Below, in pieces: positions 420-42,730 of a DNA stretch of 52,377 bases. Source of the DNA: Acidobacteriota bacterium (GTDB lineage Bacteria > Acidobacteriota > Vicinamibacteria > Vicinamibacterales > CAVVIG01); NCBI GenBank assembly GCA_003222535.1, contig QHWJ01000254.1, forward strand, positions 1-52,377, in the 5' to 3' direction. Each line of letters opens with the position of its first letter. Position 1 is the stretch's first letter. Below the pieces are notes generated by a model. That model saw nothing but the letters and a program-made list of their open reading frames with translations. It had not been told where the DNA came from and did no database searches. The position numbers and the translations under genes are program-made.

Positions 420-1409
420 CTACTGTGCGCCGCTCAGGCGCAGAAAGGTGTAGGCCGCGGCAGCGATGGTGAACGCCGCCGGGATGGTGAGAATCCACGC
501 CCACACAATCTGTCCCGCGACGCCCCAGCGCACGGCTGACAGCCGTCGGGTGGCGCCGACGCCGACGATGGCGCCGGTGATGGCGTGGGTCGTGCTCACC
601 GGAACCCCGGTCCGCGTCGCGATGAGCAGCGCGATTGCCGCGCCGGTCTCGGCTGCGAAGCCCCCTACTGGTTGCAGCTTCGTGATCTTCGAGCCCATCG
701 TGTGGATGATCCGCCAGCCGCCCGCGAGCGTGCCGAGACTGATCGCCGTGTGGGCGATGAGGACGACCCAGAACGGAATGGAGAACGTCTCGATGTAGTG
801 CGCCGTATACAACACCCCGGCGATGATCCCCATCGTCTTCTGGGCATCGTTTGCGCCGTGGTTCAGGCTGAAGAACGCCGCCGAGATGAGCTGCAGCCGC
901 CGGAACCAGCGATCGACGCGGGAAGGCGGGGTCCAGCGAAGCAGCCAGTGGATCGCGACCATCAGCGCGAGCCCGGTGGTCAGGCCGATGAGCGGCGAGA
1001 GAAAAATGAAGATGATCGTCTTGGTCCAGCCGCTGGTGATGACGGCCCCAACACCCGCCTTCGCAACCGCTGCACCGGCATATCCGCCGACGAGCGCGTG
1101 CGACGAGCTCGTCGGCAACCCGAAATACCAGGTGATGAGGTCCCAGATGATCGCGCCCGCGAGGCCACCGAAGATGACCGAAAACGTGACGATGTGGATG
1201 TCGATCATCCCGGAGCCGACGGTCTTCGCGACGGCGGTGCCGAAGGTGAACGCCGCGACGAAGTTGAAGAAGGCCGCCCAGATGACCGCCTTGCCGGGCG
1301 ACAGCACACGGGTCGACACCACGGTCGCAATCGAGTTGGCCGCGTCGTGGAACCCGTTGATGTAGTCGAAGACCAGCGCGACGCCGATCAGGCCGGCGAC
1401 GATCAGCAT
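420..1409 (-). CDS. pit: PiT family low-affinity inorganic phosphate transporter
   Basis: The 329-residue membrane protein starts MLIVAGLIGVALVFDYINGF. It carries both PiT/PHO4 signatures: GFHDAANSIATVVSTR near residue 16, and its internal repeat SLNHGANDAQKTMGIIAG near 190. It also has the conserved GLPTSSSHALVGG and GVPVSTTHAITGAI segments. The family moves metal-phosphate complexes with protons or Na+ across the inner membrane. The ATG at 1409 is chosen over the longer open frame because homology starts there and because the upstream DUF47 gene stops 5 nt before it, the usual DUF47-pit operon spacing. Length is normal for a bacterial PiT. The upstream partner is broken, so this gene may now be expressed without its usual accessory protein. 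Confidence 0.93.
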   Translation of the reverse strand: MLIVAGLIGVALVFDYINGFHDAANSIATVVSTRVLSPGKAVIWAAFFNFVAAFTFGTAVAKTVGSGMIDIHIVTFSVIFGGLAGAIIWDLITWYFGLPTSSSHALVGGYAGAAVAKAGVGAVITSGWTKTIIFIFLSPLIGLTTGLALMVAIHWLLRWTPPSRVDRWFRRLQLISAAFFSLNHGANDAQKTMGIIAGVLYTAHYIETFSIPFWVVLIAHTAISLGTLAGGWRIIHTMGSKITKLQPVGGFAAETGAAIALLIATRTGVPVSTTHAITGAIVGVGATRRLSAVRWGVAGQIVWAWILTIPAAFTIAAAAYTFLRLSGAQ

Positions 1410-1414
1410 CGGCG

Positions 1415-1955
1415 CTATCCGTGCTTGACCATGACGCCCTCGAGCACGTTCGCCACGTCTTCGCAGCGATCCGTCGCATCCTCGAGGAAGTCGAGCGCCT
1501 CTTTCCATTTCATCACGACGCTCGGATCACGCTCGTCGTCGAACAGGCGGCTGACGGCTTGCTGGTGGGTCCGGTCCGCTTCGTTCTCGAGGCGGTTGAT
1601 CTCGATCGCGTGCGTCGCGACGCCTTTGCGCTGCTCTATCCCGCCGAGGGCGAGCCGCACCTGATCGGTGCACGCCGTGATGATGCGGGCCAATTCCCGC
1701 GCGCCGAAGCGCACCGACTCGAGCCGGTAGAGGCGCACGAGCGTCGCCGAGGCGTCGATCGCGTCCATCACATCGTCGAGTGAGCGGGCGAGCGCGTGAA
1801 TATCCTCGCGATCGAGCGGCGTGACGAACGTGCGGTTCAGACGCTGGATGATTTCGTGCGTGAGGAAGTCGCACTTGTGCTCGACCTCCTTGATTTCGTC
1901 GGCCTTGTCCCAGACGGGACGTTTCCTCGCGCGGAATCAGCCTGAAGAACGCCAC
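1415..1955 (-). pseudogene. PhoU-like DUF47 phosphate transport accessory protein, internally deleted
   Basis: A good start (GTG at 1955 after GGGAGG) gives VAFFRLIPREE, the typical DUF47 N-terminus. The rest of the family signature, DEIKEVEHKCDFLTHEI and then RTFVTPLDREDIHALA, lies in a different frame. About 28 residues that family members carry between these blocks are absent (estimated from memory of the family). The likely event is one internal deletion near 1905-1925 that also shifted the frame. The downstream frame has a TGA just before the junction and no good start of its own. DUF47 proteins normally accompany PiT transporters, as here. A sequencing or assembly error is possible but would need more than one lost base. 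Confidence 0.75.
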
Positions 1956-2012
1956 TCGCCCTCCCAAGAAGCCTCGCCTGCCGAGGCCAAACCCGTGGAT
2001 TGTCGAAGGCCC

Positions 2013-2030
2013 GTTTACACGGTTTACACG
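2013..2030. promoter_or_regulatory. Tandem 9-bp direct repeat, possible operator
   Basis: GTTTACACG occurs twice head to tail (2013-2021 and 2022-2030) in the spacer upstream of the DUF47-pit pair. The 9-bp period differs from the 11-bp period of classical PhoB or PhoP boxes, so I do not call it a Pho box. No regulator is assigned. Confidence 0.25.
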
Positions 2031-2183
2031 GACGTTATGCCACGGTTATTCAGAGCGGCGCAACGATCCGGCGATCGGTGCTGCTCAGCTTGAAGACAAC
2101 TATCGTGATCGGCCACGCTGCCAGGCGAAGTGGCGCCGAATGATCCGACGAACTCGCGCCAGGCCGTCGGCAGGTTGAAGGCT

Positions 2184-3524
2184 CTAGTGTTCCGGCGGCG
2201 CCGTCCGGGCGCGCCGGCGTCGGCGGCGCCGTCGCTTCCGCCGGAACAGCGGCAGGGGTCCCTCGACACCGTCGCTTGCCGGCGCGGCGGCTCCGTCTTC
2301 TGCCAGGATCGTCTTCCAGTGTTCGACGGTCTCCGGCGCTCCTCCGTGAATCTCCAGCCACGTCAACGCCTCGCGGAAGACGCCGCGGTGGGTCAGGGCG
2401 CGCTGCGCGCGCGGGCTCGCTGACAGATCGCGCATCCGCCGCTGAAGGCCGACGATCTGGCGCAGCCGCTCGACGTCCCGACGCGCGAGCGGCAACTCGC
2501 CGAGCCGGGGACCCGGCGCGTGCCGCGGCTTCCGATCCAGGACGGGAGCCACGTCCTCGCCGGGAATGACACCGGCGTCTGATCCCGATCCGCGAGGTGG
2601 ATACAGCGAGATACCCAGCGGCACGAGCAAGGTGCCGAGGAGGATGGCATTCGACAGCGTGTCGGGCGTCGATTCGAACTGACTGCGGTACGCGTCGAGC
2701 GCCGCGAGCGACTGCCACAGCGGATCGGCCGCGCCCCGATGCAGCTCCGCGGAGATTGGCTGCAGCAGGCCGACGCCGGCCAGACCGCGGAACGCCTTCT
2801 CCGCCGCGCCCGCGCGCAGAATCTTGTAGTACTCCTCCAGCAGTCGCGGGAGCGAGCTCTTCGCGATCTCCTTCCGGTGCGTGCGGATGGCGTCGAGCAA
2901 GGTCGGCTCGATCGTGAAGTTCAGGCGCGCGGCGAGCGCAATCGCGCGCAGCATGCGAACCGGGTCTTCGCGCAGCCGGACGTCCGGATCGCCGATCGAG
3001 CGCACGACGCCCGCGCGCAGATCCTCGAGGCCGCCGACGTAGTCGATCACCGCAAACGTGGCGATGTCGTAAGCGAGCGCGTTGATCGTGAAATCGCGGC
3101 GGAACGCGTCCTGTTCCGGCGTGCCGAAGGTGTTGTCGTGGTGGATGAGATGTTCGCCTTCAGGCGTCGTCGGATCGGGCGCGGGCACGCCGTCCTGCAC
3201 GACTTCCTCGCCCACGCCCACCTGGCGGCGGAACGTGGCGACCTCGATCACCTTCTGCCCGAACTTGACGTGCGCCAGGCGGAAGCGCCGGCCGATGATC
3301 CAGCAGTTTCGGAACAGCTTCTTGACCTGATAGGGGTGCGCGGAGGTGCCAATGTCGAAGTCCTTCGGCCGGCGTCCGAGAAGAAGATCGCGGACGCTGC
3401 CGCCCACCAGATAGGCGGCATGGTCGTACTCCCGCAGCCGATATAAAACCTTCAATGCGTCCGGATCGATGTCGCGGCGGGAGATCGGGTGCTCCTGTCG
3501 CGGAACGATCCTCGGCTCGACCAT
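2184..3524 (-). CDS. pcnB: Poly(A) polymerase / CCA-adding nucleotidyltransferase family, PcnB type
   Basis: The protein belongs to the class II nucleotidyltransferases that add A residues to RNA 3' ends or repair tRNA CCA ends. The start region IVPRQEHPISRRDIDPDALK matches PcnB. The nucleotidyltransferase core follows, with LVGGSVRDLLLGRRPKDFD (GG motif and DxD) and the RRFRLAHVKFG and RRDFTINALAYD segments. A strongly basic tail near the C-terminus (RRKRRRRRRRRAR) resembles the RNA-binding tails of PcnB. The ATG at 3524 is preferred to one 12 codons upstream because a -10/-35 pair ends only 8 nt before it. At 446 residues it is close to the family norm. Poly(A) and CCA activity cannot be told apart with certainty from sequence. 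Confidence 0.9.
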   Translation of the reverse strand: MVEPRIVPRQEHPISRRDIDPDALKVLYRLREYDHAAYLVGGSVRDLLLGRRPKDFDIGTSAHPYQVKKLFRNCWIIGRRFRLAHVKFGQKVIEVATFRRQVGVGEEVVQDGVPAPDPTTPEGEHLIHHDNTFGTPEQDAFRRDFTINALAYDIATFAVIDYVGGLEDLRAGVVRSIGDPDVRLREDPVRMLRAIALAARLNFTIEPTLLDAIRTHRKEIAKSSLPRLLEEYYKILRAGAAEKAFRGLAGVGLLQPISAELHRGAADPLWQSLAALDAYRSQFESTPDTLSNAILLGTLLVPLGISLYPPRGSGSDAGVIPGEDVAPVLDRKPRHAPGPRLGELPLARRDVERLRQIVGLQRRMRDLSASPRAQRALTHRGVFREALTWLEIHGGAPETVEHWKTILAEDGAAAPASDGVEGPLPLFRRKRRRRRRRRARTAPPEH

Positions 3525-9450: not shown

Positions 9451-9540
9451 GGCAGGTCGCGTAAGTCGGATAGGTCGGCGTAGGTCGGGCAGGTCGGGTA
9501 GGTCGAGTAGGTCGGGTAGGTCGGGTAGGTCGGGTCTACA
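9451..9540. repeat. Nine-copy decamer tandem repeat
   Basis: From the base after the lipoprotein stop, a 10-bp unit close to GGTCGGGTAG repeats about nine times and ends at the -10 box of the next gene. The whole intergenic spacer is repeat, so the -35 region of the downstream promoter lies within it. Confidence 0.85.
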
Positions 9541-9551: not shown

Positions 9552-10565
9552 ATGCGACGCACCTCATCCCTGCTGCTCGCCCCGGGAATCGTCGTCGCCA
9601 TCGTGCTTCTCGTCCCGGCTTTCGCCTCGCACGACAGCCACGCCGCGGCGCCGATGCCCATCCTCGTCGAGCTGTTCACTTCCGAAGGTTGTTCGGACTG
9701 TCCGCCGGCCGACACGGTGCTCGGCCAGCTGATCCGGACGCAGCCGATCGGTGGCGCCGAAATCGTCGGCCTCGGCGAGCACGTCGACTACTGGGATCGC
9801 CTTGGCTGGAAGGATCGGTTCTCGTCGGCCGCGCTGACCGGGCGGCAGCAGCTCTATCAGGCGCGCTTCAGGACCGAAAGCATCTACACCCCGCAGATGG
9901 TGGTCGACGGCCGCGCGGAGCTCGTGGGCAGCGACACGACCGCCGCACGACGCGCAATCGAGCGTGCGTTGACATCGCCGCATGGAGTCGTGCGCATCGA
10001 CATGGATTCCGATGGAGCGCGACGCTTCGTTCCCGATGTGGGGCGACCCTTTCCCGCCTTCGCTGGCTCTCAAGATCAGCGAGCTCCGGCGAGGCTCGCC
10101 GACCAGCCTCCGCCAAGGCTACGGCGGTCCGCCGAAGCTTCAGCGAAGGCGGAAGCGCCGGAGGCGCGAAGGCGGCAGGGTCGCCGAGAAGCTGCCGGCG
10201 ACGCTAAAAGCGTCGCCCTACAAGTAGCTAAGAGCGTCGCGCTGCAAGTCACGGTGAGCGACATTCCGCGCCTCGGCCGCGGCGATCGCGCCGACATCGT
10301 CGTCGCGGTCACCGAAGATCATCTGCGCTCGGATGTGAAGCGCGGTGAAAACCATGGACGCACGCTGGCGCATGCCGCCGTGGTGCGGTACCTGGCGGTG
10401 ATCGGACAGGCTTCCTCCGACGGCGTCTCGTCGGCACGCGCGGACATCCCTCTTGCCGCGGACTGGCAGCGCGATCAGGTGAAGGTGGTCGCCTTCGTAC
10501 AAGAGCTGCGCGGCCGCACGATCCTGGCGTCCGCGTCCGTCCCGCTGCGGAACACTCGACCGTGA
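9552..10565 (+). CDS. DUF1223 thioredoxin-like exported protein with an in-frame repeat insertion
   Basis: After a signal peptide (MRRTSSLLLAPGIVVAIVLL), the protein shows the DUF1223 hallmark VELFTSEGCSDCPPAD with a CxxC pair in a thioredoxin-like fold, then YTPQMVVDGRAELVG. The C-terminal family block GDRADIVVAVTEDHLRSDVK and RTLAHAAVVRYL is also intact. Between them, about residues 160-235 are not family-like. They are encoded by a palindromic repeat (peptide ADQPPPRLRRSAEASAKAE), then a REP hairpin and two tandem copies of AKSVALQV, all in frame. The start is ATG 9552, with GTG 9546 as alternative. The stop overlaps the next start (GTGA), so the two genes form an operon. Substrate and redox partner are unknown. 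Confidence 0.8.
   Translation: MRRTSSLLLAPGIVVAIVLLVPAFASHDSHAAAPMPILVELFTSEGCSDCPPADTVLGQLIRTQPIGGAEIVGLGEHVDYWDRLGWKDRFSSAALTGRQQLYQARFRTESIYTPQMVVDGRAELVGSDTTAARRAIERALTSPHGVVRIDMDSDGARRFVPDVGRPFPAFAGSQDQRAPARLADQPPPRLRRSAEASAKAEAPEARRRQGRREAAGDAKSVALQVAKSVALQVTVSDIPRLGRGDRADIVVAVTEDHLRSDVKRGENHGRTLAHAAVVRYLAVIGQASSDGVSSARADIPLAADWQRDQVKVVAFVQELRGRTILASASVPLRNTRP
10070..10250 (+). repeat. In-frame palindromic repeat block inside the DUF1223 gene
   Basis: The core CCTCCGCCAAGGCTACGGCG through CAGCGAAGGCGG (about 10106-10152) is nearly identical to a block inside the P1 peptidase gene at 42480-42565, read in the same frame. It is followed by a GTAG-headed REP hairpin (10197-10221, minus orientation) and a 24-bp tandem duplication (10204-10251) encoding AKSVALQV twice. 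Confidence 0.85.
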
Positions 10566-11875
10566 ACGAGTATCCCTACTGGTGGGACACCGTGCCCGCG
10601 CTGCGCGCGGGAAGTCAGAAGTCAGAAGTCAGAAATCAGAAGTCAGAAGTTGGAAGAGCGGAACTTCCGAGCCGCGCCGATGTTGTCATCGTCGGCGCGG
10701 GTTATACGGGGCTCGCGGCGGCCCGGCAGCTTGCGCGCGCCGGCGCCACGGTGCTCGTCGTCGAGCGCGAGCGTATCGGGTGGGGGGCGAGCTCACGCAA
10801 CGGCGGTCAGGTGCTGACCGGCCTCAGGCTCGAGCCCGCCACGCTCGTCGCGCGGTTCGGTGAGCGGCGCGCGCGGCAACTCTTCGAGGCGGCCGCCGAG
10901 TCGATTGTCCGGATCGAAGCGTTGATTGCCGAGGAGCGGATCGACTGCGAGTACGCGCGGACGGGCCACATCCAGGCCGCATGGAAGCCGGCGCATTTCG
11001 AGGCGTTTCGAACAGAGCAGGCGCTGCTTGCCCGCGTCTTCGACCACCGCGTCCATCTCGTGCCGCGCGCGGAACAGCGGGCGGAGATCGGCACCGACGC
11101 CTATCACGGGGTCCTGGTCGACGAGCGGAGCGGCGGATTGAACCCCGCGCAGTATGTGCACGGGCTTGCCGCGGCCGCCGCGCGCAGCGGCGCCCGGATC
11201 ATCACCGGCGTCGGCGTCGATCGAATGCGGCAGCGATCCGGCGGCTGGCTGGTCGAGACAACGGGCGGCGTTGTGGAGACCCGGGACGTGCTGGTCGCGA
11301 CCAACGGGTACACGAACGGTGCGGCGCCGGCGCTGCAGCGCCGCTTCGTGCCGATCGGCAGCTACATCATCGCGACCGTGACGCTCGACGCCAGCCTGGC
11401 GGCGGCGCTCCTGCCGCGGCGGCGGATGGCGTTCGATTCCAAGCACTTCCTGTATTACTTCCGCGTGACGCCGGATGGGCGGCTGCTTTTCGGCGGGCGC
11501 GCCCAGTTCGGGCGGCCGACTCCCGGGACGATCCGCCGTGCCACCGCCGTTCTTCGAGACGGGATGACACTGATTTTTCCCGAGCTCGCCGCGGAACGCA
11601 TCGACTACGCGTGGGGCGGCAACGTCGCGTTTACCCGCGATCAGGTGCCGCGCGCGGGGAAGCTCGACGGTCTGTACTACGCCGGTGGCTACTGCGGTCA
11701 CGGCATCGCGATGGCGACGTATCTCGGAGAGCAGATCGCGCGCCGGATCGCCGGCGAGCCGATCGATCACCCGTTGTTCGACGATCGCTTTCCCGCGATT
11801 GCGATGTATTCCGGCAACCCGTGGTTCCTGCCGCTCGTCGGCGCGTATTATCGAGTGCGGGATTGGCTCCAGTAG
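10562..11875 (+). CDS. FAD-dependent oxidoreductase of the DAO/PuuB type
   Basis: The 437-residue enzyme opens with YPYWWDTVP, typical of the gamma-glutamylputrescine oxidase-like branch. The Rossmann FAD motif VVIVGAGYTGLAAARQLARAG follows with an acidic strand end (VVERE). It then has GASSRNGGQVL and a C-terminal FAD motif LYYAGGYCGHGIAMA. Such enzymes oxidise secondary or primary amines of amino acids or polyamines. Residues 17-31 (SQKSEVRNQKSEV) come from a heptamer repeat inserted before the Rossmann motif without breaking the frame. GTG 10562 overlaps the previous stop, and the next gene overlaps its own end, so it lies within a three-gene operon. The precise substrate cannot be read from sequence. 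Confidence 0.85.
   Translation: MNEYPYWWDTVPALRAGSQKSEVRNQKSEVGRAELPSRADVVIVGAGYTGLAAARQLARAGATVLVVERERIGWGASSRNGGQVLTGLRLEPATLVARFGERRARQLFEAAAESIVRIEALIAEERIDCEYARTGHIQAAWKPAHFEAFRTEQALLARVFDHRVHLVPRAEQRAEIGTDAYHGVLVDERSGGLNPAQYVHGLAAAAARSGARIITGVGVDRMRQRSGGWLVETTGGVVETRDVLVATNGYTNGAAPALQRRFVPIGSYIIATVTLDASLAAALLPRRRMAFDSKHFLYYFRVTPDGRLLFGGRAQFGRPTPGTIRRATAVLRDGMTLIFPELAAERIDYAWGGNVAFTRDQVPRAGKLDGLYYAGGYCGHGIAMATYLGEQIARRIAGEPIDHPLFDDRFPAIAMYSGNPWFLPLVGAYYRVRDWLQ
10611..10649 (+). repeat. Heptamer repeat inside the FAD oxidoreductase gene
   Basis: TCAGAAG repeats five times from 10615 with one change, preceded by GAAG. It lies in the coding sequence between the N-terminal YWWDT motif and the FAD-binding motif. 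Confidence 0.85.
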
Positions 11876-40067: not shown

Positions 40068-41150
40068 CTACTTTCTCAGGTCGCGCGCGGCCGGAATGCC
40101 GGCGACGCCGGTGGCCTCGGTCGCCGCGCGGACGACCGCGTCCGCCATCGCTTCGGCGGCGAGGGCGCCGATGACGGTGATGTCGGCCGTCCCATTCCAG
40201 CGGCCGGTTGCGAGCGAAAAGATCGTGTCGCCGTCGCCGTTGGTATGCGCAGGGCTGATCGCTCGCGCGTAGCCGTCGTCTGCCATCAGCGCCATGCGGG
40301 TCGCCTGCGATTTGGTGAGCTTCGCGTTGGTGGCGACGAGGCCGATCGTCGTGTTCTCTCCCGCCCGCGGCGGCTGTGCGCTGGCGCCCGACCGCAGGAT
40401 TTTCCGCGCGTCGGCGAACGTGTTGTCGGGATTGCGGACGCCCGCCACGATTTTTCCGGTGGCGGGATCGACGATGTCGCCGACGGCATTCACCGCGACG
40501 AGCGCGGCCACGACGAGTCCGTTGGGAAGCGTGATGGACGCGGTGCCGATCCCCGATTTGGTCGAGCGGCCCGCGCCGCCCAACTTGCCGACCGTCGCGC
40601 CGGCGCCTGCGCCGACGGAGCCTTCCGGCACCGCGCCGGTCGTCGCCGCTTCCGCCGCCTTGTAACCGCAGTCGGCTGTCGGACGGATCGTCGGATTTCC
40701 TCCGACGCCGAGGTCGAACAGGATTGCGGCCGGCACGATGGGGACCTTCGAGGGGCCGGCGGGCCAGCCGATGTTGTGCTCCTCGAGCCACCGCACGGCG
40801 CCCGTGGCGGCCTCGAGGCCGAACGCGCTGCCGCCCGCGAGGACGACCGCGTTGACCTTGTCCACCATGTTCAGCGGGTCGAGCAGGTCGGTTTCGCGCG
40901 TGCCGGGCGCGCCGCCGCGCTGCGAGACGCCGCCGACGGCGTCGCCGTCCACGAGGATCGCCGTGCATCCGGTGGGTCGCTCGGTGAGCGTATGGTGGCC
41001 GACCTTGATGCCTTCGACCGCGGTGAGCCCGACCTTCGCATGCGCAGGTGCCTGAGCCGCGAACCCGATCGACAGAGGCGGGACGCACGTGAGGGCAAGC
41101 ACAGTCGGCACGGCGCAGCGCGAGGCTTTCAGCCGAGCGGAGCGTTTCAT
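40068..41150 (-). CDS. P1 family (S58, DmpA-like) aminopeptidase, exported
   Basis: The 360-residue protein has a signal peptide (VPTVLALTCVPPLSIGFAAQ). It then carries P1/DmpA motifs: GIKVGHHTLTERPTGCTAIL, AVVLAGGSAFGLEAATGAVRWLEE, PTIRPTADCGYKAA, GSVGAGAGATVGKLGG, and the autocleavage region NTTIGLVATNAKLTK, where a Thr or Ser becomes the N-terminal nucleophile after self-processing. Such enzymes remove N-terminal residues from peptides or amides. A second copy is encoded just upstream on the same strand. TATCGT lies 6 nt before the ATG with no ribosome site. It heads the symporter-SDR-dehydrogenase run. Confidence 0.88.
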   Translation of the reverse strand: MKRSARLKASRCAVPTVLALTCVPPLSIGFAAQAPAHAKVGLTAVEGIKVGHHTLTERPTGCTAILVDGDAVGGVSQRGGAPGTRETDLLDPLNMVDKVNAVVLAGGSAFGLEAATGAVRWLEEHNIGWPAGPSKVPIVPAAILFDLGVGGNPTIRPTADCGYKAAEAATTGAVPEGSVGAGAGATVGKLGGAGRSTKSGIGTASITLPNGLVVAALVAVNAVGDIVDPATGKIVAGVRNPDNTFADARKILRSGASAQPPRAGENTTIGLVATNAKLTKSQATRMALMADDGYARAISPAHTNGDGDTIFSLATGRWNGTADITVIGALAAEAMADAVVRAATEATGVAGIPAARDLRK

Positions 41151-41407: not shown

Positions 41408-42730
41408 TCACCTCAGATCCCGGACGGCGGGAAGATTCGGCAGCCCGGTCGCCTGCGTCGCGGCGCGGATGACGGCGGCCGCCATCACGTCGGCTGCGAG
41501 CGCGCCGAGCGTGATGAGATCGGGATCGCCCGGCTTGCTGCCCGTCGCTATCGCGAACACGGTGTCGCCGTCGACGATGGTGTGGATCGGCCAGATGGCG
41601 CGCGCGTAGCCGTCGTCGGTCAGTTGTGCGAGATAGGACGCCTGTGCTTTCGTGAGCCGCGCGTTGGTCGCGACGACACCGATGGTCGAGTTGGCGCCGC
41701 CGCCATCCGCCCGTGGCGCACCGGATCGAATCACGACGCGCGCGTCGGCGAAGCCGTTGCCTCGCGTCTCGCGGACGCCCGACACCACCTTTCCCGTGGC
41801 GGGATCGATCACATCGCCGAGCGGGTTCACCACCACGAGCGCCGCGACGATCAATCCGTCGGGCATCCTGATCGCCGCGCTGCCGACGCCGCTCTTCATC
41901 GCGCGCTCGATGCCGCCAAGCTTGCCGAGCGTCGCGCCCGCGCCCGCCCCGACGCTCCCTTCGACGACGGGCGCCGCCGTTGCCGCTCGTGCTGCCCGAT
42001 AGCCGCAGTCGGCGGTCGGCCGTATCGTCGGATCGCCCACCCTGAGGTCGAAGATGGATGCGCCGGGCACGATCGGTATACGCCTGTCGCCGTACGCAAT
42101 GCCGGCGTTCTTCTCCTCCAGATACCGCAGAACGCCGTCTCCGCTGGAGAGGCCGAACAGGCTGCCGCCAGAGAGGGCGATGCCGTGGATTTGCTCGGCC
42201 ATCTTCGTCGGATTCAGCAGATCGGTGTCGCGCGTCGCCGGCGCTGCGCCGCGCACGTCGACGCCGGCGGTCGCGCCGCCTTCGATCAGCACGACCGTGC
42301 AGCCGGTCGGCCGCGCGGTGAGGGTGTGGTGGCCGACCTTGATGCCGGGCACGGCCGTCAGCGTCGCGTTCTGCGCCGAGGCAGGCCTTGATGCCTGCAC
42401 GACGACACCTCCCATCGTCTGGAGCGCGCCGCCTTCGCGCCAAAGGCGCTTCGGCGAGCCACGCCGTTGCTCGCCCGAACTCCGCGCGAGCGGAGGCGGG
42501 AGGCTTTCCGCCTTCGCTGAAGCTACGGTGGACCGCCGAAGCCTTGGCGGAGGCTGGTCAGCCGAGCGGACCGGCTCGCCTGAAAGGCTCGCCCTCCAGT
42601 CGTGGCCAGGCGTAGGGTAGATCTTCAGTTCTGCCGGAGTCGTGTGGACCTTCAGGTCCGCCGGGACGGCGGCGAGACCGACGAGAGCGGCCGACAACGC
42701 GATCCAGACCCGCATGCCAGGCTTCATCAT
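41408..42730 (-). CDS. P1 family (S58, DmpA-like) aminopeptidase with repeat-derived N-terminal insertion
   Basis: The catalytic part (residues 120-440) is a close paralogue of the neighbouring P1 peptidase: GIKVGHHTLTARPTGCTVVL, GIALSGGSLFGLSSGDGVLR, PTIRPTADCGYRAA, GSVGAGAGATLGKLGG and the self-cleavage block NSTIGVVATNARLTK. The signal peptide is MRVWIALSAALVGLAAVPA. Between signal and catalytic domain lie about 90 residues not seen in the paralogue. They include ADQPPPRLRRSTVASAKAE, which is read from the palindromic repeat also found in the DUF1223 gene. TACAAT lies 6 nt before the start. Cleavage of the signal peptide would leave a long basic pro-segment. Activity is not obviously lost. 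Confidence 0.85.
   Translation of the reverse strand: MMKPGMRVWIALSAALVGLAAVPADLKVHTTPAELKIYPTPGHDWRASLSGEPVRSADQPPPRLRRSTVASAKAESLPPPLARSSGEQRRGSPKRLWREGGALQTMGGVVVQASRPASAQNATLTAVPGIKVGHHTLTARPTGCTVVLIEGGATAGVDVRGAAPATRDTDLLNPTKMAEQIHGIALSGGSLFGLSSGDGVLRYLEEKNAGIAYGDRRIPIVPGASIFDLRVGDPTIRPTADCGYRAARAATAAPVVEGSVGAGAGATLGKLGGIERAMKSGVGSAAIRMPDGLIVAALVVVNPLGDVIDPATGKVVSGVRETRGNGFADARVVIRSGAPRADGGGANSTIGVVATNARLTKAQASYLAQLTDDGYARAIWPIHTIVDGDTVFAIATGSKPGDPDLITLGALAADVMAAAVIRAATQATGLPNLPAVRDLR
42430..42610 (-). repeat. In-frame palindromic repeat block inside the P1 peptidase gene
   Basis: The minus-strand core CCTCCGCCAAGGCTTCGGCG through CAGCGAAGGCGG (about 42510-42556) matches 10106-10152 with few differences and is read in the same frame. 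The flanking parts (GGCGAGCC twice around 42576-42597, and CTCCGCGCGAGCGGAGGC) are also palindromic or repeated. Confidence 0.85.

Follow-up and report, generated by a model that had tools for sequence, protein, structure and literature searches.

The window analysed here, a stretch of 52,377 nucleotides from an acidobacterium of the order Vicinamibacterales (contig QHWJ01000254.1), contains the same palindromic block inside two unrelated genes, open in the same reading frame in both. The question is whether such a block is adapted to coding regions, as its likeness to the palindromic elements of Rickettsia had suggested, or is a dispersed repeat, some copies of which are tolerated within genes. 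We consider it quite probable that the block belongs to a dispersed family of REP/REPIN-like palindromes, specific to the lineage on present evidence, probably mobile and mostly intergenic, whose in-frame copies in linkers are passively tolerated.

The block CCTCCGCCAAGGCTWCGGCGGTCC was found at 10107-10130 (plus strand) within a DUF1223 gene and at 42530-42553 (minus strand) within the second of two P1 peptidase genes; in 100 shuffles it had no matches, even with three mismatches allowed. The second arm, CTTCAGCGAAGGCGG, is exact at both sites (10138-10152, plus strand, and 42508-42522, minus strand). Taken alone it is less striking than the block, as two matches with at most two mismatches occurred in 4 of 100 shuffles. 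Both open reading frames encode ADQPPPRLRRS-x-x-ASAKAE in the same frame. The starting observation of the first-pass annotation, a near-identical block read in one frame in the two genes, thus stands: both sites and the peptide were found, beyond chance. A scan of the window against Rfam produced no match at gathering scores.

The insert in the DUF1223 gene

The DUF1223 gene (PF06764; 9546..10565, plus strand) matches its profile in two stretches, and its linker carries the insert. A home-made gene finder missed the gene in the unmasked sequence and recovered it after masking of the repeat; we accept it as real because of the Pfam profile and the homologues. The whole repeat-derived insert, a set of nested palindromes whose ends pair together, occupies 10038..10250 of the plus strand, as judged from the DNA of relatives; these boundaries are only approximate because the relatives are some 70-79% identical there. 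All its parts lie on the plus strand: a left REP-like end GTGGGGCGACCCTTT with a GTAG-type tag (10038..10052), the core, formed by GACCAG, CCTCCGCCAAGGCTACGGCGG and TCCGCCGAAGCTTCAGCGAAGGCGG (10101..10152), and a right REP-like end AAAGCGTCGCCCTAC, which is an inverted GTAG-tagged end (10207..10221). On folding of the insert, the end at 10038 pairs with the end at 10207. A second, similar right end follows at 10228..10250, and the orthologue L093 (genome G024) has a single one; the AKSVALQV duplication of the window copy is explained by this second end. Both the REP hairpin and the duplication noted at first reading were thus recovered, the former as the REP-like ends.

Positions 9639-10000 and 10259-11759 of the window align to positions 1543-1904 and 1938-3414 of the syntenic locus L092, and 258 window bases stand in place of 33, a difference of exactly 75 codons. 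The linker length, taken between two conserved motifs, was measurable in eight of ten relatives (L099 and L100 are off the motif pattern). It is 108 residues in the window, 33-40 in four of the eight (L092, L094, L095, L096), 46 in L098 and 55-63 in L091, L093 and L097.

Inspection of the DNA by eye revealed repeat-like inserts, either related to the window's or different from it, at the insertion point in four of seven relatives. The insert of L093 (APEARRRQG...ESVALQV) is related, that of L097 (genome G014) is a clean pair of inverted REPs, GTGGCGCGGCCCTTTCAGGGCCGCGCC...GGCGGGCCTGAAAGGCCCGCCCCAC, and L094 and L091 contain a short palindrome and a short repeat, respectively; no repeat-like insert was seen in the linker DNA of L092, L095 and L096. 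The linker thus seems to be a landing place used repeatedly by repeats, which would be the most interesting part of the case. A tandem run of GTAGGTCGGG-like units (9460-9540) lies directly 5' of the gene.

The copy at the peptidase gene

The second copy lies in the N-terminal extension of a P1/S58 peptidase ORF (41408..42730, minus strand) whose start codon is uncertain. On the minus strand it consists of a left REP-like end GGAGGGCGAGCCTTT (42583..42597), the core (42508..42553) and a right end AAGGCGGCGCGCTCC (42421..42435). The gene finder places the start at 42400, downstream of the repeat, and residue 124 is the first of the profile match to the peptidase domain. Among 11 homologous loci the match starts at query residue 102-117 in seven and at 45-81 in four, and the repeat peptide, as judged by eye, is absent from all of them. 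Translation of this copy is possible, since the sequence from an upstream start, MMKPGMRVWIALSAALVGLAAVPA, plausibly resembles a signal peptide by eye. As an open frame that may belong to an untranslated leader, it makes a weaker case than the DUF1223 copy. Of the translation in two exported proteins originally proposed, the in-frame ORFs are upheld, but the peptidase gene call starts after the repeat. The peptidase ORF adjoins a paralogue (40068-41102, minus strand). Its N-terminal extension also contains, at about 42604-42655 (minus strand), DLKVHTTPAELKIYPTP, which gives the impression of being part of another dispersed repeat.

Copies in the genome and in relatives

The genome of the window comprises 8.06 Mb in 450 contigs. 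The 21-base core was found in it at 72 places with at most three mismatches, compared with two for the reversed control. We examined 65 of these; four others are second arms of copies already listed, two (C406, C412) were unfetched, and one, in the neighbouring peptidase gene (40139, three mismatches), was left out. Among 40 genomes searched, none of them from the same genus, 25 including the window's own contain the core with at most one mismatch, at up to 82 places per genome. The exact 33-base version was found in 38 stretches of GTDB genomes, a count from which records near the window's own are possibly omitted; all are titled Acidobacteria, several of them gp6.

The maximum belongs to G027, a relative assembled as a single contig of 7,480,314 bases. 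It has 155 core places, and the 82 with at most one mismatch were examined. Its core belongs to a related subfamily and is not the same element, since the right side differs and a second arm was recognized, weakly, in one of the 82. GTAG or CTAC occurs beside the core in 46 of 82 cases (background 3% and 7% per side), and the core is embedded in other palindromes, such as GTAG-CCGTCGACCT...AGGTCGACGG. The copies of loci L125 and L126 have about 50 bases of flank in common on each side (CCCGCCTCCGCTCGTCCGGGATCC...) and form a longer subfamily.

Structure of the ends

In full copies the core is surrounded by inverted ends, GGAG[GC]GCGAG[CG]CTTT and GTAGGGCGACCCTTT. Among the 49 two-armed copies of the window's genome, the left end pattern was found in 12 (background 1.7%) and the right one in 29 (background 1.5%); both occur together in 12 copies and neither in 20. 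Many ends in this genome are degenerate, with GGAG or GTGG instead of GTAG. Compared with shuffled sequences, a 107-nt sequence folds with a z of -4.5, a 105-nt composite of observed pieces with -3.7, and the core alone with -2.0. The ends, the GTAG/GGAG tags, the hairpins and the intergenic excess described below give the repeat a REP/REPIN-like character.

Location and reading frame

Genes were called by a simple coding model trained on the fetched stretches, after masking of the element. The counts cover the 49 copies with both arms, leaving out the 16 of 65 without a second arm; two of the latter, C34 and C57, may be genuine genic copies that have diverged. Thirty of the 49 copies are intergenic and 19 genic, an excess between genes with P 9e-12, given that coding sequence makes up 0.826 of the fetched stretches. 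Twelve genic copies are internal, four lie less than 150 bases from the start and three less than 150 bases from the stop. The peptidase copy of the window is counted here as intergenic; if it is genic, the numbers become 20 of 49, with eight in frame +0. In G027, 64 of 82 cores are intergenic and 18 genic, two of these within 150 bases of the start and one of the stop; two genes have two cores each.

The genic copies of the window's genome use frames +0 (7), -2 (7), -1 (3) and +2 (2), and none are in +1 or -0. When a frame is drawn at random among the stop-free frames of each copy, the top count is at least 7 in 45% of draws, and +0 reaches at least 7 in 8%. On average 3.96 frames of the element are open, compared with 4.00 after shuffling, so that it shows no extra stop-freeness. 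All six frames are used in G027 (+2 in six genic copies, -2 and -1 in three each, +1, -0 and +0 in two each). The first-pass annotation had envisaged a coding-tolerant element with a strong bias to one frame. The genome-wide tabulation of frames and locations contradicts it: the genic copies of the window's genome fit a random choice among stop-free frames, four frames are used in one genome and six in the other, and most copies are intergenic, the outcome which that annotation itself had named as refuting. As there is no single coding frame across copies, the shared frame of the two window copies needs no special cause.

The intergenic copies exhibit no preference for a particular gene arrangement, with 21 between genes in the same direction, 6 between divergent and 3 between convergent genes, compared with 130, 39 and 25 background gaps. 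Split genes, which would be scars of out-of-frame insertion, were sought at 10 of the 21 same-strand copies by scanning both neighbours. In eight of the ten both neighbours have Pfam matches, and the families are never common; at C433 one neighbour has matches, and at C397 neither. No split-gene scar was therefore seen at the ten scanned copies, and this candidate is unsupported there.

Hosts of genic copies

In-frame copies within conserved genes, among them UvrC, a Radical SAM enzyme, a sulfatase and DUF1223, are well supported as open frames. The Radical SAM profile match (142-351) spans the core at residues 236-251, and the sulfatase match (13-332) spans it at residues 189-204. For UvrC RNase H, DUF1223 and PrmA the profile match falls into two stretches each; in UvrC the best stretch, 526-623, corresponds to profile positions 54-159, and the core is at 489-504. 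Further hosts according to Pfam are an ABC ATPase, SelB, a lipase maturation factor, an FtsX-like permease, a Mur ligase, a GATase_5 protein, ApbE and QueG. MtaB, MurF and PurQ are names that go with such families. UvrC, PrmA, SelB and Mur ligase are cytoplasmic enzymes.

Y1 transposases

A search for the Y1 family gave matches in 28 of 40 genomes. The core is absent from all 30 scanned Y1 transposase loci (L203-L232, the window's own genome included), and arrays of the end pattern occur in two, L216 (G014) and L217 (G034). In both of these the Y1 gene has GTAGCGCGAGCCTTT / GTAGGGCAACCCTTC arrays on both sides, with a spacing of about 37 bases in L216, and the array units are the same kind of end as that of the window repeat. 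In the window's genome one Y1 gene was found, at L213; it adjoins neither the core nor end arrays, and the candidate that the genome's own Y1 gene is flanked by the window repeat was rejected. This ORF (1387-1881, minus strand; G000:C216) adjoins a different GTAG-type palindrome, CCGGCTTCAGCCGGACCTAC. Co-occurrence of the core and Y1 genes over the 40 genomes was not significant (P 0.09 and 0.15). The tie between the repeat and a transposase is weak. No close empty site was found in the fetched related loci; at DUF1223 the relatives are too distant for exact boundaries.

Origin of the repeat

A mobile palindrome adapted to coding regions, like RPE-1 of Rickettsia, would be stop-free, have one preferred frame and give exported proteins a functional peptide. 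The near-identical peptide in the same frame of the two window ORFs speaks for such an element, as does the place of +0 among the two commonest frames (7 of 19). Yet the genic copies occupy +0, -2, -1 and +2 in this genome and every frame in G027, counts as high as those of +0 arise in the random draws given above, shuffling leaves the element just as free of stops, and several hosts (UvrC, PrmA, SelB, Mur ligase) are not exported; we regard this explanation as very improbable. Still harder to credit is an artefact of assembly or binning. Its one attraction is the fragmentation of this metagenome-assembled genome into 450 contigs, but G027, a single contig, has the core in and between genes, the orthologous DUF1223 linkers of other genera have related or similar inserts, and exact matches occur in other metagenome-assembled Acidobacteria. 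Misassembly is unlikely since both the single-contig relative and the other genera carry the same kind of insert.

Less remote, but in our opinion still unlikely, is a MITE with terminal inverted repeats (TIRs), mobilized by a DDE transposase or by tyrosine transposases of the TIR-associated type, and not a REP. Copies of about 105 nt with inverted ends fold into one closed structure; the core is in no scanned Y1 locus; and TIR-associated tyrosine transposases have been reported from Acidobacteria, according to the available text of PMC3733652. The GTAG/GGAG tags and the hairpin ends of REP type that some copies have point the other way, as do the REP arrays around the Y1 genes of L216 and L217.

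For the dispersed REP/REPIN-like palindrome that we favour, the element would consist of GTAG- or GGAG-tagged hairpin ends, inverted around a conserved middle hairpin, the core, and would spread as a small non-autonomous unit. By analogy, a Y1 transposase of the REP-associated kind would move it by acting on hairpins in single-stranded form. The insertion itself would be indifferent to reading frame. Selection would then purge copies that break genes, and the intergenic ones would remain. A minority, inserted into linkers or near the ends of proteins, whose length is a multiple of three and whose frame is free of stops, would be translated as passive extra sequence, the encoded peptide presumably being neutral.

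Relation to known repeats

The likeness to the in-gene palindromes of Rickettsia holds in part: this too is a dispersed palindromic repeat, in frame in unrelated genes and absent from orthologues (DUF1223, UvrC, Radical SAM), but it has no single preferred frame, and its copies are mostly intergenic, the genic ones being in several frames. The available text of PMC3733652 (2013) describes GTAG- and CGTC-tagged palindromes, many within ORFs of several species, uvrA and uvrB included, where they encode 20-30 or up to 82 residues. There RPE-4 and RPE-6 are tied to the CGTC group, whereas the ends of the window repeat are of the GTAG/GGAG type. In the same account, genes inactivated by insertion are plausibly removed and the surviving inserts may be neutral. 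The acidobacterial repeat fits this account of intragenic palindromes, in the available text of which Acidobacteria are named once, for the TIR-associated transposases.

As far as the available texts go, GTAG-tagged REP, REPIN and BIME elements are likewise short many-copy palindromes, mostly intergenic and sometimes entirely within ORFs, DNA-repair genes included. Their inverted pairs and the GTAG tag at one end have counterparts in part of the copies here, where the tag is often degenerate (GGAG, GTGG). The window repeat differs by a longer middle hairpin, by the Y1 gene of its genome not adjoining it, and by the gene-internal position of 12 of 49 two-armed copies. Prokaryotic MITEs, the subject of a review (PMC10969869), are also small, with inverted ends and many copies, whereas the window repeat has REP-type hairpin ends. 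A description of this repeat in Acidobacteria was not among the literature matches listed (titles and starts of abstracts, with thin coverage of subscription journals). Intragenic REPs were described in 2013 (PMC3733652, available text); the acidobacterial repeat adds an example to a known repeat type and is not a new system. It is a case with many copies, from a group other than Rickettsia and Proteobacteria, in which palindromic repeats lie in frame within conserved enzymes and a table of frames separates passive tolerance from coding adaptation. Odd linkers or N-terminal extensions of acidobacterial proteins, such as those with PPPRLRRS, FAEATADRRS or SAKATAVRRS, can derive from repeats.

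Linkers of conserved enzymes

Orthologues were compared for four genes: DUF1223, UvrC, the Radical SAM/MtaB-like gene and the P1 peptidase. The MtaB-like linker has 86 residues in the window's genome compared with 44-57 in nine of 11 relatives; in the other two, L246 and L248, it has 91 and 123 residues, with a different insert-like sequence. By eye, the peptide encoded by the core is absent from this linker in all 11 aligned relatives. The UvrC linker has 111 residues compared with 21-91 in relatives, all 11 of which are shorter. A tentative and rather doubtful extension is that the permissive linkers of this acidobacterial order (DUF1223, UvrC, MtaB-like) are hit repeatedly by REP-like palindromes, so that unrelated families might each, on their own, remodel one and the same loop and keep supplying new linker sequence.

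At residues of about 440-480, the UvrC linker of the window's genome (L125, 2536-4608) contains another repeat-like sequence, STGSGRAEASARSERAK...LVVSLSNHE; two repeat families may have landed in this one linker. The FtsX-like permease (L148, 3169-6855) seemingly has two copies of the repeat, at about residues 270 and 330, the second being more diverged.
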